Shown: piece after piece, positions 2,498 through 10,531 of the stretch
Position numbering within the stretch: position 1 is the first letter of the stretch
Layout: each line of letters begins with the position of its first letter
Source of the DNA: an archaeon
GTDB lineage: Archaea > Thermoproteota > Nitrososphaeria > Nitrososphaerales > Nitrosopumilaceae
Reading direction: 5' to 3'
DNA: 15,899 bases
Assembly: GCA_005240025.1 (NCBI GenBank)
Contig: SBBK01000092.1
Span: forward strand, 1 to 15,899
Made by a program: the position numbers and the translations under genes
The notes under the pieces: model-generated
What the model was told of the DNA's origin: nothing
Seen by the model: the letters and a program-made list of their open reading frames with translations, nothing else
The model's database searches: none

Positions 2498-3499
2498 TTA
2501 AAGACGAATTACGGAAAAACCGTATTCTTTGCAGTTTTCATAGTGTTTTCTTATCTCGCCCTCCCATCCTTTTCCCACATCGAGCCCAGTGAGGGACTTG
2601 TGCAGCTCGGCGATTCTGTCCCTGTATGTTTTGTTTCGTTTTATGATTTCGTCCAAAAATTCCGAACTGGCCAGCGAGTCGCTCTTTTTAGAGTTGCACC
2701 CGCTGCATGTCATGACCAGATTCCAGGATTCATCCTCAAAAATGTACGACCACGGGATAAAGTGGTCTACATGAGTATCATCGTTTTCAAGGACACAGTT
2801 GCAGTAAAAACAGTGCCTAAAGTCTCGAAAGATGTGCACGTATTTTCTTAGCGAGGTGCGCTTGACTTCGGCGCTTTCTATCTTTGCTATCAGACGCGGA
2901 AGCGTGTTTATTTTTTCTAGGAATTTTGCCCACTCCAGAATGACTGATTTGAAAAGTGTCGTATAGTTTTGGTTAAAGAATTCAAGAGCCTGCGGTTTTA
3001 TCCTGATGCACATTGCGTTGTCATCATAATCGTAAAAAACCGGCTTCCCTGTTGCCGAGTTTCCCTCCCTGATGTTTTGGAATCTAGGTATCACCTGTGA
3101 TGTCTTGCTTTTTTCTTTTCCAAAGACCTTTTTGCGGATTTCATTTTGTGCTTCTTTGATGATATCGGCAGGCATCTCTGAGAATCTTCTGTGAATGTAG
3201 TGTTCTCCAAAGACGTGGCGTATTGTGGTGACGACCGAAGGGGGTTTTGCGTCGTTGTGGTTTTGCCGTATTCTGTATTTGCATTCCTGGTGCCAGTAGT
3301 ATTTTAGAAAGGCATTTGCTATTTGCTGGTAGTCTACTGTTTCTGGCTCGTTGTTTTTTAGTTTGGCATAGATTTGTTCTTTGGTCAGATTTTGCGAGTA
3401 ATCCAGGAGGAATCGTGCAAGGGCAAACTTGTAGGTGTTGTCTTTGACGCCCTTCGTGAGGATTGTGTTAAAGTAGTATCTGAGATCAGTGTTTGCCAA
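2498..3499 (-). CDS. HNH endonuclease domain protein
   Basis: A 333-residue protein whose C-terminal third is a zinc-supported HNH nuclease. Cys230 and Cys233 (HCFYC) are followed by the catalytic segment HVDH (243-246), Asn260 in the WNLV turn, and Cys265-x-x-Cys268-Asn269 with a following Lys pair. All residues expected of an active McrA-like HNH motif are present. The N-terminal ~210 residues are helical and basic with no domain I recognise. The start is a TTG at 3499; the only nearby ATG is followed at once by a stop. It is oriented against the biosynthetic genes, separates the first carrier/ligase pair from argC, and looks AT-richer (lines 2941-3000 and 3061-3120 count to about 35% and 40% GC, against about 55% for line 7681-7740). 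This suggests later acquisition. No methylase or toxin partner adjoins it, so restriction, defence or selfish roles are open. Confidence 0.85.
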   Translation of the reverse strand: MANTDLRYYFNTILTKGVKDNTYKFALARFLLDYSQNLTKEQIYAKLKNNEPETVDYQQIANAFLKYYWHQECKYRIRQNHNDAKPPSVVTTIRHVFGEHYIHRRFSEMPADIIKEAQNEIRKKVFGKEKSKTSQVIPRFQNIREGNSATGKPVFYDYDDNAMCIRIKPQALEFFNQNYTTLFKSVILEWAKFLEKINTLPRLIAKIESAEVKRTSLRKYVHIFRDFRHCFYCNCVLENDDTHVDHFIPWSYIFEDESWNLVMTCSGCNSKKSDSLASSEFLDEIIKRNKTYRDRIAELHKSLTGLDVGKGWEGEIRKHYENCKEYGFSVIRL

Positions 3500-3651: not shown

Positions 3652-4707
3652 ATGTTAAGGGTGGGCGTAGTTGGCGCATCAGGGTACGTAGGCGGCGAAA
3701 TGCTGCGACTTCTGGTAACCCATCCCAAAATCGAAATTGCAATGGTCACATCCCGCCAGTATGTCGGTGAATACATCCACCGCATCCAGCCAGCACTCAA
3801 GGGATTTACTGAACTTACGTTTTCCGAGCTGGATTATGACAAAATGTCAGACAAATGCGATCTGGTCTTTACCGCAGTTCCCCACGGAACGGCAACAGAA
3901 ATAGTAAAAGCACTCTACGACAGGGGCCTCAAAATAGTAGACCTTTCAGCAGACTACCGCCTGCACCAGCAAGAAGGATACACCAGGTGGTATGGCTGGG
4001 AGCACCCCCACCCCGACTATCTGGCAAAATCCGTCTACGGTGTTCCAGAACTTCACAGAGAGAAAATTAAAGACGCCAGGCTTGTGTCGTGTCCTGGCTG
4101 CATGGCAGTAACATCGATGCTGGCCCTTGCCCCCTTGGTCAAAAACAATCTAATCGACACAGAACATGTGGTAGTGGATTCCAAGATTGGCTCATCTGGT
4201 GCAGGTGCCGGAAGTGTCGCAGGGACCCACCACGCCATGCGCTCAGGAGTCATCAGACCATACAAGCCTACAAAGCACAGGCATACGGGAGAAATTGAGC
4301 AGGAACTCTCAGAAATTGCAGGCAAACCAATCAAGGTATCGATGAGCCCACACGCAGTGGATATAGTTCGCGGCATCTTGTGCACAAGCCATACCTTCCT
4401 TACAAAAGAAATTTCAGAGCTGGAGTTGTGGCGCGTCTATCGTGACATGTACAAAAACGAGAGATTCATCAGGCTGATTCGCGACAAAAAAGGACTCTAC
4501 AAGTTCCCGGACCCCAAGTTCGTAGTCGGCTCCAACTTTTGCGATATCGGCTTTGACATAGACGAGTACAACCACAGACTTGTTGCACTGTCTGCATCAG
4601 ATAATTTGATGAAGGGTGCCGCAGGATCTGCAGTACAAAACATGAACATAATGGCAGGCTTTGATGAGATGGACGGCCTCAGGTACTCGCCGCTCACTCC
4701 AGTTTAA
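3652..4707 (+). CDS. lysY: LysW-acyl-phosphate reductase (ArgC/LysY family)
   Basis: NADPH-dependent reductase that converts the LysW-bound gamma-glutamyl or aminoadipyl phosphate to the semialdehyde. It has 351 residues, normal for the family. The Rossmann motif VGVVGASGYVGGE is at residues 4-16, the catalytic cysteine is Cys150 in CPGCMA, and the active-site histidine is in MSPHAVDIVRG near residue 219. The PGCMA form and the presence of LysW genes on both sides argue for the LysY branch over classical N-acetylglutamyl-phosphate reductase. With only one reductase gene here and two carrier/ligase pairs, it probably serves both arginine and lysine synthesis, as reported for Sulfolobus. A TATA box at 3619-3630 starts this operon, and four nt separate its stop from the lysZ ATG. 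Confidence 0.92.
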   Translation: MLRVGVVGASGYVGGEMLRLLVTHPKIEIAMVTSRQYVGEYIHRIQPALKGFTELTFSELDYDKMSDKCDLVFTAVPHGTATEIVKALYDRGLKIVDLSADYRLHQQEGYTRWYGWEHPHPDYLAKSVYGVPELHREKIKDARLVSCPGCMAVTSMLALAPLVKNNLIDTEHVVVDSKIGSSGAGAGSVAGTHHAMRSGVIRPYKPTKHRHTGEIEQELSEIAGKPIKVSMSPHAVDIVRGILCTSHTFLTKEISELELWRVYRDMYKNERFIRLIRDKKGLYKFPDPKFVVGSNFCDIGFDIDEYNHRLVALSASDNLMKGAAGSAVQNMNIMAGFDEMDGLRYSPLTPV

Positions 4708-4711
4708 GAAA

Positions 4712-5512
4712 ATGATCACAGTCAAAATTGGCGGAAGCGTGGTAGAAAATCTTCACCCATCCACAATCTCCGACATAAAAAAGGTCGCCTCAGATGAGGG
4801 AGTAATACTTGTGCACGGGGGCGGCAAAGAAGTCACAAAAACCTGCGAACTTTTGGGGAAGGAACCCAAGTTTGTGGTGTCCCCTGGCGGCATCAAATCA
4901 AGATATACCGACAAGGAGACTGCAGAGATCTTTACAATGGTAATGTCCGGCAAGATAAACAAGGCAATAGTCCAAATGCTCCAAAAAAACGGCATCAACG
5001 CAATAGGACTCAGTGGGGTAGATGGGCAAATATTTGTGGCAGAGCGCAAGGACAAGCTTGTAATTGTAAACGAAAAGGGCCGAAAGCAAGTAATTGACGG
5101 CGGCTACACCGGCAAGGTCACCCATGTTAACTCCAAGCTTTTAAGGTTGCTTTTGGATCAGGGCTACACGCCGGTAATTTCTCCAATTGCCATAAGCAAG
5201 GAATTTGACCTGCTAAACATAGATGGGGACCGGGCAGCTGCAAATGTGGCAGGGGCCATCAAGTGCGATAAAATCCTGTTTTTGACAAACGTCGACGGCC
5301 TTTTGATGAACGACAGATTAGTTGAAAAGCTGACAAACGCAGAGGCAAAGGAGATTCGCCCCAAGGTAGGCTTTGGGATGGAAAAAAAGATTCTTGCCGC
5401 ATCCGAGGCCCTCGATATGGGTGTCAGCGAAGCCCTCATTGCAAACGGCCAGCGGGAAAATCCTATATCCTCGGCAATTTCTCACCAGAGCTGCACGGTA
5501 ATTTCAAAATGA
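4712..5512 (+). CDS. lysZ: LysW-aminoadipate/glutamate kinase
   Basis: Amino acid kinase family enzyme (266 residues) that phosphorylates the side-chain carboxylate of the LysW-bound substrate. Visible motifs are KIGGS (5-9), the glycine-rich HGGGKE (35-40), the substrate-loop RYTDKET, LSGVDG (100-105) and the nucleotide-binding NIDGDRAAANVAG (169-181) followed by NVDGL. The ATG at 4712 is chosen because the KIGGS strand must be near the N-terminus; the longer open frame from 4661 runs inside argC. The gene begins 4 nt after argC and its ATGA overlaps the aminotransferase start, indicating translational coupling. It is related to ArgB N-acetylglutamate kinase, but the LysW context makes LysZ the better name. 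Confidence 0.93.
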   Translation: MITVKIGGSVVENLHPSTISDIKKVASDEGVILVHGGGKEVTKTCELLGKEPKFVVSPGGIKSRYTDKETAEIFTMVMSGKINKAIVQMLQKNGINAIGLSGVDGQIFVAERKDKLVIVNEKGRKQVIDGGYTGKVTHVNSKLLRLLLDQGYTPVISPIAISKEFDLLNIDGDRAAANVAGAIKCDKILFLTNVDGLLMNDRLVEKLTNAEAKEIRPKVGFGMEKKILAASEALDMGVSEALIANGQRENPISSAISHQSCTVISK

Positions 5513-6696
5513 ACGAAGATAACTTCCTTGGCAGCCTGTATCAGAGGTTTCCAGTAACAATAGAGCGCGGACAGGGAGTCCGAGTGTGGGACATTAACAA
5601 CAAAGAATACATTGACTGTATGGGTGGATACGGAGTGGCCCTCGTTGGCCACAGAAACCCTCGAGTTGTCTCTGCAATCAAGTCCCAGCTTGACAAAATC
5701 ATAACAGTGCACACCTCGCTCTACAACAAAACCCGGGAGGAGTTTTTGGAAGAATTAATCAAGGTTGCGCCAGACGGACTCTCAAATGTACACCTTGGCA
5801 ACAGTGGCACCGAGGCAGTAGAGGCGGCAATCAAGTTTGCAAGAAAATACACAGGAAAATCAGGAATGGTTGCAATGACTGGTTCCTACCACGGAAAATC
5901 CATGGGGGCCCTCTCAATTACGTTTAATCCAAAGTACCGCAAGTCATTCATGCCACTGGTGGAAAAGGTTGCATTTTCACAGTTTGGCGATATCGAGGCC
6001 CTGAAATCAAAAATAGACAAAGACACGGCATTTGTCATCATGGAACCAATCCAGGGGGAGGGTGGAATCCATGTTGCGCCCGATGGATTTTTGCAAGATG
6101 TAAGAAAGGTTTGCGACCAAAACGGAATCCTTTTAATTTTTGACGAAATTCAGGCAGGTTTGGGCAGAACGGGCAAGATGTGGGCCTGCGACCACTGGAA
6201 TACGACGCCCGATATCATGTGTCTTGCAAAGGGAATAGCGGGTGGCGTCCCAATGAGCGCAACCTTGGTCAGGCCTGAAATTTTGGCAGCCATGAGCAAG
6301 GGCGAACACTCCTCAACCTTTGGCGGAAACCCCCTGTCGTGTGCCGCTGGAATTGCCACGCTGCAGACCCTCACAGAAGATGGCCTAGTGGACAATGCCG
6401 CAATGGTCGGCAGGATATTTCGAGACGGCCTTGAAAAGCTAAAACAAAAACACGGAATCATCCGCGAGATAAGGGGCAGGGGCCTCATGATCGGAATAGA
6501 GATGAAGTTTGAGGTAAAGGATATTTTGTTTGACGGGATTTCAGAGGGAGTTTTGCTCCTTTATTCGGGCAGAAATGTCCTCCGGCTGCTGCCGCCACTC
6601 GTCATAAACGAGGAGGACATCAAAAAAGTATTAGAGATACTGGACAGATTGTTTGCTAGGGAGACTGCGAGGAGAAATGTTCAAGGACAAAATTGA
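5509..6696 (+). CDS. lysJ: LysW-lysine/ornithine aminotransferase
   Basis: Class III PLP-dependent aminotransferase of 395 residues, normal length. It converts the carrier-bound semialdehyde to LysW-lysine or LysW-ornithine with glutamate as amino donor. Motifs include GNSGTEAVEAAIK (98-110) for cofactor phosphate binding, SYHGKSMGALS, the FDEIQAGLGRTG segment with Asp212, LAKGIAGG with Lys241 as the Schiff-base lysine, and SSTFGGNPL. It starts in a 4-nt ATGA overlap with lysZ. As the only ArgD/LysJ-type gene in the cluster it is probably shared by both pathways. Plain N-acetylornithine aminotransferase is the alternative, disfavoured by the LysW neighbours. Confidence 0.93.
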   Translation: MNEDNFLGSLYQRFPVTIERGQGVRVWDINNKEYIDCMGGYGVALVGHRNPRVVSAIKSQLDKIITVHTSLYNKTREEFLEELIKVAPDGLSNVHLGNSGTEAVEAAIKFARKYTGKSGMVAMTGSYHGKSMGALSITFNPKYRKSFMPLVEKVAFSQFGDIEALKSKIDKDTAFVIMEPIQGEGGIHVAPDGFLQDVRKVCDQNGILLIFDEIQAGLGRTGKMWACDHWNTTPDIMCLAKGIAGGVPMSATLVRPEILAAMSKGEHSSTFGGNPLSCAAGIATLQTLTEDGLVDNAAMVGRIFRDGLEKLKQKHGIIREIRGRGLMIGIEMKFEVKDILFDGISEGVLLLYSGRNVLRLLPPLVINEEDIKKVLEILDRLFARETARRNVQGQN

Positions 6697-7212: not shown

Positions 7213-8394
7213 ATGAACGATCCAAACTATTACGCCCACCTGCACAACGAGTACGACAAAAAGCCCCGGAGGGTCCATGTACTGGACAGCACGCTTCGGG
7301 AGGGCGAACAGCACCCGGGTGTGACATTTACCAACAAGCAGAGAATCCAGATTGCGTGGATGCTTGATTATTTCGGAGTGGACCAAATCGAGATATCACC
7401 AGTGGTGTCGGAGGATCATTTTGAGGCGACAAAAACCATAATCAAACAAGGCCTCAAGGCAGACATTGTTGCCCACGTCAGGGCGCTAAAGACGGACGTC
7501 GATGTCGCGCTAAGGTGCGACCCCAAGTGGACTGCCACATATCTTGGAATTTCCGATATTCACCTCAAGGACAAGCTTAGAATAACAAGGGAGGAAGCAC
7601 TCCGCCGAGCAGTAGAGACAGTCGAGTACGCAAAATCTCACGGACTCAAAATGAGATTTACCGTGGAGGATGGCTCCAGAGCAGACCCCGAGTTTGTACT
7701 CAAGGTCTGCAAGGCAATCGAGGATGCAGGTGTGGACAGAATAAGCCTCCCGGACACAGTGGGAGTGATGAGGCCAAAGGGAATGTTCAATTTTGTCAAA
7801 ATGGTAAAGGAAAAGATACGAGTACCGCTGGATGTCCACTGTCACAACGACATCGGGTTTGCAGTTGCCAATGCATTTGCCGGAGTCGATGCGGGTGCGG
7901 ACCAGATCCACACCACAATAGACGGGATTGGCGAGCGAACCGGGATTCCATCCCTTGCCGAGGTGGCAGTCGCCTTGACGTATTTGTACCGTTCCCCAAA
8001 CGACTTTAGGCTCGACATGCTGACTGATCTTTCCAGACTAATCGAGGAGTATACAGGAATCAAGCCCTACGACTCAAAGCCAGTTGTCGGCTCATCCGCA
8101 TACAAACACAAGGCAGGAACGCACCTGGCTGCAATTTTGAGAAATCCGGCAGCGTACGAACCCATTCCCCCCCGGGTTGTAGGCAACAGGCGCCGAATAG
8201 TATTTGGCGAGCTGGCAGGAAAGACAGGTTCTGCATACCTTATGTCCCTTTTGGGTCTGGATAAAAACGACGAGCAGGCAAAGGCAGTGGCCCTTGGCCT
8301 TAAAAACCTCCGAATGGGAGACCTCCTTGAGATCCCCCTTGATGGCAAGCTTGAAAGAAAGATAATTAATGACGCCAGAGGAACCAAAGAGTAA
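7213..8394 (+). CDS. lysS: Homocitrate synthase
   Basis: DRE-TIM-barrel acyltransferase (393 residues) that condenses acetyl-CoA with 2-oxoglutarate, the entry step of the alpha-aminoadipate route to lysine. Signature motifs are DSTLREGEQ (25-33), the metal-site HCHND (His209, His211), the TTIDGIGERTG turn (about 234-244) and HKAGTHLAA (299-307), the last typical of archaeal homocitrate synthases. It lies 3 nt before lysW2 and begins the lysine-specific half of the locus. No C-terminal RAM domain is evident: the protein ends about 60 residues after the barrel/subdomain, unlike the longer Sulfolobus enzyme, so feedback may work differently. Isopropylmalate synthase is the main alternative; the motif wording and the LysW neighbours favour homocitrate synthase. 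Homoaconitase and homoisocitrate dehydrogenase genes are not in the window. Confidence 0.85.
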   Translation: MNDPNYYAHLHNEYDKKPRRVHVLDSTLREGEQHPGVTFTNKQRIQIAWMLDYFGVDQIEISPVVSEDHFEATKTIIKQGLKADIVAHVRALKTDVDVALRCDPKWTATYLGISDIHLKDKLRITREEALRRAVETVEYAKSHGLKMRFTVEDGSRADPEFVLKVCKAIEDAGVDRISLPDTVGVMRPKGMFNFVKMVKEKIRVPLDVHCHNDIGFAVANAFAGVDAGADQIHTTIDGIGERTGIPSLAEVAVALTYLYRSPNDFRLDMLTDLSRLIEEYTGIKPYDSKPVVGSSAYKHKAGTHLAAILRNPAAYEPIPPRVVGNRRRIVFGELAGKTGSAYLMSLLGLDKNDEQAKAVALGLKNLRMGDLLEIPLDGKLERKIINDARGTKE

Positions 8395-8396
8395 CC

Positions 8397-8564
8397 ATGG
8401 TAAAATGTTCTGAATGCGATTCGGATATCTCAGTTCCAAAGGACGCCCTTGAGGGCGAGCTGGTAACTTGCCCAGACTGTGGTGCAAGTTTTGAGATTAC
8501 AAAATCTTCAGGCGGTTTTGGGTTAAAACCTGCCCAGAGCGTAGGAGAGGACTGGGGTCAGTGA
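8397..8564 (+). CDS. lysW: LysW-family carrier protein, copy 2, with C-terminal Gln (EDWGQ)
   Basis: A second 55-residue carrier, too short for many gene callers. Zinc-binding pairs Cys4/Cys7 and Cys25/Cys28 and the length match copy 1, and the C-terminal block SVGEDWG is identical to it. However, the last codon is CAG (8559-8561), so the protein ends in glutamine, where LysW normally ends in the glutamate whose side-chain carboxylate carries the substrate. The stop TGA overlaps the GTG start of the following ligase as GTGA, giving tight coupling. It sits 2 nt after homocitrate synthase and directly before the second ligase, so it is probably the lysine-pathway carrier. A CAG/GAG sequence error is possible; Pup-like deamidation or alpha-carboxyl attachment are the biological alternatives. 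Confidence 0.9.
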   Translation: MVKCSECDSDISVPKDALEGELVTCPDCGASFEITKSSGGFGLKPAQSVGEDWGQ

Positions 8565-9403
8565 CCCCCATAACTGTTCTTTACGACACCATCCGAGTCG
8601 AGGAAAAGGCCCTTGTCGAGGCATCAGACAGAACAGGCATCAAAATTGAGATGGTTGATTGTAAAAATCTCATATTAGATATTGACAAAAAAAACACATA
8701 CCACACCGTACTGCAGCGATGTGTCAGCTATTATAGAAATCTCCATTCTACCGCTGCCCTCGAAGGTATGGGTGCAAGTGTGATAAACTCGCTGTATACA
8801 GGAATTTATGCCGGCAACAAACTCTTTACCCACATGCTGCTACAGGCTGCCAGGATCCCGACACCCTTTGTCACAGTTGCATTCTCTAAAGAATCCGCCA
8901 TTGCGGCCCTCAACAGGCTTGGATACCCAAGGGTGATCAAGCCGACCGTTGGAAGCTGGGGCAGGATGGTGACAAAGCTAAACAGCAGGGAAGCTGCCGA
9001 TGGCATAATCGAGGAGCGCGAAAAAATGTATCCCATATACCAGGTTCACTATCTGGAAGAGTTTGTTAAAAGGCCTCCCCGGGACATAAGGGCAATAGTA
9101 ATAGGTGATTCTGTGGCCGGCGCCATTTATCGCAATTCTTCCGAAGGAAACTGGAAGACAAACACCCATCTTGGAGGGACTGCCGAGGTCTGCAAGGTAA
9201 CAAGCGAGATTGAGGAGATCTGCCTCAAGGCAAAAGACGCAGTAAGGGGCCAGATAGTAGGGGTGGACCTAATGGAAAGCAAAGACAGGGGCCTGGTAGT
9301 ACACGAGATAAACAACACTACCGAATACAGAAACGTTGCCCGCGTAACTGGTGTGGACATTGCCGCAAAGATTTTAGAATACGCAGTCAAATCAGGAAAT
9401 TAA
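8561..9403 (+). CDS. lysX: Alpha-aminoadipate-LysW ligase
   Basis: ATP-grasp ligase of 280 residues that attaches an amino acid to its carrier. Motifs are VIKPTVGSWGRM (125-136), RPPRDIRA (171-178), GVDLME (234-239) and the active-site strand HEINNTTEY (248-256). The C-terminal TGVDIAAKILEYA is very close to what I recall of Thermus LysX, and the KTNTHLGG loop (199-206) keeps the T-N-T seen there, unlike the first ligase. The GTG start overlaps the carrier stop by 4 nt. Placement between homocitrate synthase/LysW2 and lysK supports aminoadipate as substrate. Its partner carrier ends in Gln, so either this enzyme uses an unusual acceptor or another step precedes it. Confidence 0.86.
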   Translation: MTPITVLYDTIRVEEKALVEASDRTGIKIEMVDCKNLILDIDKKNTYHTVLQRCVSYYRNLHSTAALEGMGASVINSLYTGIYAGNKLFTHMLLQAARIPTPFVTVAFSKESAIAALNRLGYPRVIKPTVGSWGRMVTKLNSREAADGIIEEREKMYPIYQVHYLEEFVKRPPRDIRAIVIGDSVAGAIYRNSSEGNWKTNTHLGGTAEVCKVTSEIEEICLKAKDAVRGQIVGVDLMESKDRGLVVHEINNTTEYRNVARVTGVDIAAKILEYAVKSGN

Positions 9404-9406
9404 AAA

Positions 9407-10531
9407 ATGGATGCATCATTTACAATAACTCCGAGATTTTCAATAAAGCTTTTGGAAAAAGCACTCCGACTTTACACTCCGTCCCTTGCAGAAAAACCGA
9501 TGGCTGAATTTCTGGCAGACAAGTGCGACGACCTGGGATTTGAAAATATCCACACAGACGAGGTGGGAAACCTCATAGCTACGATGGGTTCTGGCTCGCC
9601 CAGAATTTTGCTGTGCGGACACATGGATACAGTCCCTGGAAAGATAAAGATCCGAAAGGAGGGAGACTATCTTTTTGGGCGGGGTGCCTCCGATGCCAAG
9701 GCCCCCCTCATGGCTCTTTTGCTTGCTGCCGCGACAATCCAGAAAAACAACGGCACGATAATTTTTGTAGGAGCTGTGGATGAGGAGGGAAACGCAACAG
9801 GCATCAAGAATCTGGCAAAGCAAAAGATGGACATCGATTATGCGATATTTGGCGAGCCAAGCGGTCTCCGAAATGTCACAATTGCATACAAGGGAAGAAT
9901 TGCAATAAACCTCAAGGTAAACGTTGGCGATAGCGCACATGCATCTGCACCGTGGCTTGCAAAAAACGCAATCGAGGAATCTGCCAGATTTGCAGCCGAG
10001 CTCAAAAATTCGCTAGAGGAAAACCAAGATGGAAAATCCAGGGGGATGCTTTTGACTGCCACCATTACCGAGATAAAGGGAGGGGACAGCCACAACGTCA
10101 CCCCAAAAGAATGCAACACAGTAATTGACATTCGAATCCCAGTCGACATGAACTGCAAGATGGTTGGAGAAAAGATCGCCTCCAAGGTCACCGAGATCTC
10201 CCAGAGGCAGAAAGTCGAGGCGATGTATTCCGTACTGGATGAGACTGAGCCCTTTGAGGCCCCCCTGAACTCGCCACTGATCAGGGCATTTACCCTTGGG
10301 GTGATGGACATAGAGCACACAAGGCCCTCACTCATTCGCAAGACGGGGACAGGCGACATGAACATTGTTGGCTCCCTTTGGAATATTCCCATTGTGACAT
10401 ATGGTCCCGGCGACCCCCATGCATCACATACAGTTGACGAGCGGGTCTCGATGAGTGAGTACCTGCGGGGAATCGAGGTATTAAGAAACACTTTACACCA
10501 TCTAAAGCGATTGCATGACTCCAAAAGATGA
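9407..10531 (+). CDS. lysK: LysW-lysine/ornithine hydrolase
   Basis: M20-family metallohydrolase (374 residues) that releases lysine or ornithine from the carrier. The metal ligands of the family are visible: His72 and Asp74 in GHMDT, Asp96 in GASDAK, the catalytic and binding pair Glu126-Glu127 in DEEGN, Glu150 in FGEPSG, and a late histidine in PGDPHASHTVDE. It starts 3 nt after the second ligase and is the last gene of the lysine operon. Because no second deacylase is present, it probably completes both arginine and lysine branches, as in Sulfolobus. ArgE or DapE would be the alternative names on motifs alone. Confidence 0.92.
   Translation: MDASFTITPRFSIKLLEKALRLYTPSLAEKPMAEFLADKCDDLGFENIHTDEVGNLIATMGSGSPRILLCGHMDTVPGKIKIRKEGDYLFGRGASDAKAPLMALLLAAATIQKNNGTIIFVGAVDEEGNATGIKNLAKQKMDIDYAIFGEPSGLRNVTIAYKGRIAINLKVNVGDSAHASAPWLAKNAIEESARFAAELKNSLEENQDGKSRGMLLTATITEIKGGDSHNVTPKECNTVIDIRIPVDMNCKMVGEKIASKVTEISQRQKVEAMYSVLDETEPFEAPLNSPLIRAFTLGVMDIEHTRPSLIRKTGTGDMNIVGSLWNIPIVTYGPGDPHASHTVDERVSMSEYLRGIEVLRNTLHHLKRLHDSKR

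Follow-up and report, generated by a model that had tools for sequence, protein, structure and literature searches.

A LysW-type carrier protein of an archaeon, LysW2, is encoded with Gln as its last residue, and this Gln end is real and conserved, marking a clade yet also recurring. In carrier-protein lysine and arginine synthesis, the Glu to which the substrate is attached has been described as a fixed point; a Gln at the attachment position points to a missing maturation enzyme or to a different linkage. Judged from sequence comparison, the Gln-ended LysW2 is best interpreted as the known carrier encoded in a Gln pro-form, with a missing enzyme step. The clade consists of three families (f1 to f3) that the genus names on the loci found with LysX2 suggest to be those of the ammonia-oxidising archaea, which are among the most abundant archaea.

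Results

LysW2 ends in Gln within a combined arginine and lysine cluster

We analyzed a stretch of 15,899 nucleotides (the window), which combines arginine and lysine genes in one cluster, in the order argG, LysW1, LysX1 (putative ArgX), LysY/ArgC, LysZ, LysJ, a LysM-type regulator, a synthase-family gene, LysW2, LysX2 and LysK. LysW2 (8397–8564, forward strand, as are all features below unless stated) is an amino-group carrier protein of 55 amino acids with the encoded C-terminus SVGEDWGQ, matching NF041070 with 90.3 bits (cut-off 75) and PF21344 with 48.6 bits (cut-off 27). Its codon 55 is CAG (8559–8561), encoding Gln55, and is followed by the stop codon TGA (8562–8564), which overlaps the LysX2 start codon (GTG at 8561). 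The second carrier, LysW1 (1317–1484; NF041070, 87.6 bits), ends in EDWGE (GAA TAG). The two ends are thus as the sequence-only reading had described them. That reading had also held that the overlap with lysX does not force the CAG codon, and our data agree: GAG TGA precedes LysX in six loci (L146, L243–L246 and L249) and, conversely, there are Gln carriers that stop at TAA or TAG (the f2 loci L087–L090, and also G215 and G326).

LysW2 has the zinc-ribbon domain and the carrier profile of LysW/ArgW proteins, and its gene lies next to LysX and the other pathway genes; where membership calls for a C-terminal Glu, the encoded sequence has Gln. Since the NF041070 alignment reaches its last position in LysW2, the named family already admits Gln ends. 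With the bacterial-type profile TIGR01206, LysW2 scored 28.0 bits, below the cut-off of 53.2, and the outcome was likewise below cut-off in all 11 genomes searched.

LysX2 (8561–9403), an ATP-grasp ligase and the putative loader of LysW2, matches TIGR02144 (LysX_arch) with 313.5 bits (cut-off 275.6). LysK (9407–10531), of the [LysW]-lysine hydrolase family (M20), matches TIGR01902 with 263.1 bits (cut-off 163.1) and PF01546, its nearest solved structure being 5xoy; its match to NF003367 (270.3 bits) is below the cut-off of 363. Directly 5′ of LysW2 lies a gene of the homocitrate/isopropylmalate synthase family (7213–8394) that matches NF002085, TIGR02146 and TIGR02090, each below cut-off. The remaining pathway genes are LysX1 (1485–2342; TIGR02144, 307.1 bits), whose putative ArgX role is suggested by its place after argG, a LysY/ArgC-type reductase (3652–4707; TIGR01850, above cut-off), the [LysW]-aminoadipate/glutamate kinase LysZ (4709–5512; NF010662, 305.8 bits, cut-off 194) and a LysJ/ArgD-type aminotransferase (5509–6696; TIGR00707, 435.3 bits, cut-off 410). 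We infer from gene position which carrier serves the lysine and which the arginine pathway. Between LysX1 and LysY there is an HNH-endonuclease-like gene on the reverse strand (2498–3499; PF13395, PF01844). The distance between LysW1 and LysW2 is 7.1 kb in the window versus 5.8–6.0 kb in the relatives G061, G402 and G398, so that this gene looks like a recent insertion in the cluster.

The Gln end is conserved in three families and occurs outside them

A search with LysX2 returned 80 loci, 78 of which carry a LysW just 5′ of LysX2; all 78 end in EDWGQ with CAGTGA. In L011 and L045, the two remaining loci, only 79–99 bases upstream of LysX are included. By their titles, the 80 loci are mostly from Nitrosopumilus, Nitrosarchaeum, Nitrosotenuis, Nitrosopelagicus, Nitrosotalea or Thaumarchaeota, with two from Nitrososphaeraceae and one from Thioglobus. 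The last (L024) bears a bacterial name, Candidatus Thioglobus autotrophicus, and its LysW2–LysX2 pair groups with Nitrosopelagicus in the tree; it is probably a mis-binned archaeal contig.

We then counted genomes by the DNA pattern for EDWGQ followed by a stop codon, many of the genomes surveyed being incomplete. Across the phylum, the pattern occurs in 87 of 398 genomes, and the reversed pattern, used as a control, in 3. By family, these are 62 of 63 in f1, 4 of 4 in f2, 6 of 6 in f3 and 0 of 1 in f4; the remaining 15 genomes fall outside the order (eight in f12, four in f17, and one each in f11, f35 and f38). The raw tallies still contain a match in G032 (L085) that lies in no LysW frame found by the scan and one of two matches in G215 that ends in TGG instead of a stop codon; the f11 match lies within no LysW frame found. 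LysW proteins ending in Gln were found outside the order in f12, f17, f35 and f38. Among 350 genomes of the window's own order, EDWGQ occurs in 169 of 182 genomes of f1, 6 of 7 of f2 and 66 of 70 of f3 (241 of 259 together), and in 0 of 91 of the other families, the family counts having been read from a table by hand. Of the 18 f1–f3 genomes without the pattern, seven have a LysW2 ending in Glu, six have no LysW match, three have LysW1 only and two have a LysW2 cut at a contig end. In the other families of the order, 27 of 30 genomes have a LysW match, and all 30 of the matches fetched (from 46) end in Glu. The bacterial sample, two plasmid-borne LysW copies, also ends in Glu. In one single-contig f1 genome of 3.2 Mb (L254, G576), the protein search matched LysW1 and found no LysW2. 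The possibility that the Gln end is a trait of the lysine carrier LysW2 only was rejected, as four genomes (G227, G390, G082 and G581) have a LysW1 with a Gln end.

Only Gln or Glu is found at the carrier end

Among 152 distinct complete LysW proteins, from loci found via LysX2, the whole LysW2 protein or TIGR01206, 85 end in EDWGQ and 67 in EDWGE, and none has another end. Thus, none of the residues one base away from GAG or CAG (Lys, Asp, Ala, Gly, Val, His, Arg, Pro and Leu) was found among these 152 ends. The profile used for collection was built from at most 60 LysW proteins ending in EDWGE or EDWGQ with the last 8 residues removed, and its seeds, like the part of the genome choice made after the pattern searches, were not blind to the carrier end. 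One LysW protein search contributed 30 loci of its 31 matches. In a larger collection (293 LysW frames, including duplicates and loci selected by Gln and Glu patterns), 153 ends are Gln and 140 are Glu.

Gln and Glu have been exchanged repeatedly

We mapped the carrier end onto a LysX tree (121 proteins) that contains no LysW letters. Parsimony places 13 changes of the Gln/Glu label on it, of which starred branches force at least 9; the tree is a quick IQ-TREE run with several long branches, thinned to about every sixth LysX2-found locus and about every fourth of L093–L114, and leaves out LysW genes without a LysX within 700 bases, partial LysX proteins and identical ones. A first tree of 74 rows needed 9 changes, 8 of them forced. 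The label is nevertheless strongly clustered, as shuffled labels need about 37 changes versus the 13 observed.

The switch also occurs within genera. In f12 g54, two genomes have Gln (G128 and G152) and three have Glu (G064, G104 and G158); in f35 g70, G137 has Gln and G095 has Glu. In f1 g6, LysW2 ends in Glu in G263, G622, G661 and G669, which form one clade, and in G645; it does so too in G559 (f3) and G436 (f2), which completes the seven genomes mentioned above. LysW1 switches as well, with Gln in G227 and G390 versus Glu in G283, and Gln in G082 and G581 versus Glu in G583. The latter three genomes belong to genus g7 (L172/L239, L259 and L258, respectively), in which LysW1 thus has Gln in two genomes and Glu in the third. 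No LysX was found beside the Gln-ended LysW1 of G082.

We also counted base changes in 111 LysW2 genes from f1–f3 and the LysX2-found loci, of which 104 encode Gln and 7 Glu at the end. At position 1 of the terminal codon, 4 changes are required, each an exchange between C and G. For the wobble base of the neighboring Gly codon the count is likewise 4, taken over its 52 C-or-G rows only, and 1 to 3 changes are required at the other wobble bases where C and G both occur. By contrast, wobble positions with three or four states need 14 to 19 changes when counted over all four bases, and no change is needed at the bases determining E, D, W and G of the LysW2 end. Valid for C/G exchange alone and based on small numbers, this comparison of rates fits a fairly free exchange of Gln and Glu. 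Gln may nonetheless be favoured rather than neutral in f1–f3, given the clustering of the label and the retention of Gln in 241 of their 259 genomes.

LysX and the neighboring genes do not follow the switch

We compared LysX proteins in nine contrasts between Gln- and Glu-linked loci, which were chosen by hand and are not all independent. The nearest LysX pairs within contrasts are 61 to 91% identical. No column separates the two states in all nine contrasts; the best three, all at variable positions, do so in seven, and a given residue is tied to one state in at most three contrasts. Of the 37 LysX columns that are conserved in the Gln and in the Glu set, none differs between the two. A LysX signature specific for Gln was therefore rejected, and LysX seems, from its sequence, to meet the same carrier end in Gln and Glu cases. 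A neighboring gene specific for Gln was likewise rejected for f12 g54, where the genes of the Gln loci L210 and L211 have counterparts in the Glu loci L212 or L214, except for two genes at one edge of each Gln locus. In f35 and f17, too few genes are common to the loci for this comparison.

In some genomes a Gln-ended carrier is the only one found

Two genomes, G215 and G326, each encode argG, LysX1, LysY, LysZ, LysJ, the synthase, LysX2, LysK and one Gln-ended LysW on one contig. A second LysW was found neither by protein search of the genome nor by motif search in the locus, where the LysX1 frame comes directly after argG. With a single LysW beside both ligase genes, the Gln carrier should serve both, unless the amino acids are imported; lysine or arginine prototrophy is unproven by the genomes used. 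On this sequence evidence, we conclude that the Gln-ended LysW must work as a carrier. Both genomes are of genus g15 of f3 (L234 and L235, respectively), which seems to have lost LysW1 and to use one Gln-ended carrier for two ligases. G009 (f12 g27) also has a single LysW, ending in Gln, with two LysX-type genes, and in G227 and G390 both LysW proteins end in Gln.

Candidate enzymes for a proposed conversion of Gln to Glu

The sequence-only reading had offered deamidation as for Pup among its explanations, with a search for a Dop-like or other amidase gene as a check. A Dop/PafA homolog (PF03136) was found in 0 of 32 genomes by a search that matched Corynebacterium glutamicum among 14 controls, and we rejected Dop/PafA as the maturation enzyme. 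The glutamine deamidase CheD is encoded in 8 of the 32 genomes. Of the 23 genomes in which a carrier ends in Gln, 7 encode CheD, and the genome of the window is one of these 7; we rejected CheD as a general maturation enzyme, as it is missing from the other 16. LysK is above the TIGR01902 cut-off in 31 of 31 genomes (26 with a Gln carrier, 5 without), and at the 44 near-invariant columns of its alignment, the 87 Gln-linked sequences agree in residue with the 8 Glu-linked ones.

LysK cuts the γ-amide between LysW-Glu and lysine. Since a C-terminal Gln is the smallest γ-amide of LysW-Glu, LysK is a candidate for the deamidase. Its presence cannot decide the matter because Glu genomes have it too, and its leaving group would be ammonia, much smaller than lysine, which counts against it. 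By analogy, then, LysK is a tentative candidate for the amidase, a weaker proposal than deamidation itself. It would possibly have two jobs, freeing finished lysine or ornithine from LysW and stripping ammonia from Gln-encoded LysW, though we put the chance of this well below even.

Discussion

We propose that LysW2 is a working carrier that is encoded as a Gln pro-form and deamidated to Glu prior to loading, a reading that the comparative data make somewhat better than an even bet; deamidation of its Gln by one enzyme or another appears reasonably probable. Chemically, the C-terminal Gln would be the γ-amide of LysW-Glu. Hydrolysis of this amide would produce the usual C-terminal Glu, and LysX2 would then ligate α-aminoadipate to the Glu γ-carboxyl group as in the standard pathway. 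Carriers encoded with Gln and those encoded with Glu would become the same molecule and, once matured, should be interchangeable in evolution. We favor deamidation because only Gln and Glu are seen, because they have been exchanged repeatedly without a LysX change that tracks the exchange, and because the Gln carrier is sometimes the only one found. The Pup-like explanation thus stands as to deamidation and falls as to Dop itself.

If the substrate were ligated to the α-carboxyl group of the terminal residue, the side chain would not need to be an acid. This would agree with the retention of Gln in most f1–f3 genomes and with the place of LysX in the RimK family, whose members are named α-L-glutamate ligases (LysX2 matches TIGR00768 with 279.0 bits; cut-off 143.4). 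Yet α-attachment should permit other residues at the carrier end, and some LysX residue might be expected to follow the switch, which none does. In addition, the window and L224 each have a single LysZ/LysY/LysJ/LysK set next to carriers of both kinds, Gln- and Glu-ended, and this set would need to handle both linkages. The γ-linkage of the substrate is, moreover, established for LysW of Thermus and Sulfolobus, and we regard α-attachment as unlikely. Tolerance of only Gln or Glu would also be explained by a transglutaminase-like reaction, in which the substrate is moved by LysX2 or a partner directly to the side chain of Gln, with ammonia released and no free Glu formed. However, LysX2 retains the positions conserved across Gln- and Glu-linked LysX proteins as well as the ATP-grasp domain, which activates a carboxylate, and such a transfer seems very improbable.

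Mistranslation deserves no greater weight. Archaea make Gln-tRNA from Glu-tRNA(Gln), and a small share of carriers might receive Glu at CAG, enough for a carrier that is recycled; what speaks for this is general knowledge, while most carriers would be useless, at odds with the retention of Gln in f1–f3. LysW2-Gln could also be a dead or regulatory copy that is never loaded, LysW1-Glu, which is present beside it in the window, doing the work. This is hardly credible with the Gln carriers of G215, G326 and G009, genomes in which no other LysW was found, with the two Gln-ended carriers of G227 and G390, and with the position of LysW2 directly 5′ of LysX2 in 78 of 80 loci. The sequence-only reading had also considered a sequencing or assembly error, GAG being read as CAG. 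We found nothing in its favor; it is refuted by CAG in 78 of 78 relatives showing LysW and by EDWGQ in 241 of the 350 genomes counted in the order, which leave it a negligible chance.

Compared with known LysW/ArgW carriers (NF041070, PF21344), LysW2 has in common the zinc-ribbon globular part, the acidic tail, the EDWG motif and the LysX neighbor; the solved LysW chains (3vpb_E, 3wwl_A and 5k2m_E), however, all end in EDWGE, whereas the encoded end of LysW2 is Gln. Its ligase belongs to the same ATP-grasp family (TIGR00768, PF08443) as the α-L-glutamate ligases RimK, CofF and MptN, but LysX2 is above the cut-off of LysX_arch (TIGR02144) and well below those of these three. The Gln/Glu swaps suggest an unrecognised maturation step that converts one residue into the other, and here the nearest likeness is to Pup, also a small protein that is used via the side chain of its last residue and is encoded with Gln or Glu. 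In actinobacteria, Dop has two activities, releasing Pup from target proteins and deamidating Pup-Gln. LysW differs in being a zinc ribbon that carries a metabolite, not a protein target, and the Pup ligase/Dop family was found in 0 of 32 genomes. If LysK did have its double role, the logic of Dop with Pup would have evolved independently in an unrelated hydrolase, and the choice between Gln and Glu at the carrier end would be nearly free wherever LysK is present. If deamidation is correct, LysW2 would be the second case, after Pup, of a protein that is used through its last residue and encoded as a Gln pro-form.
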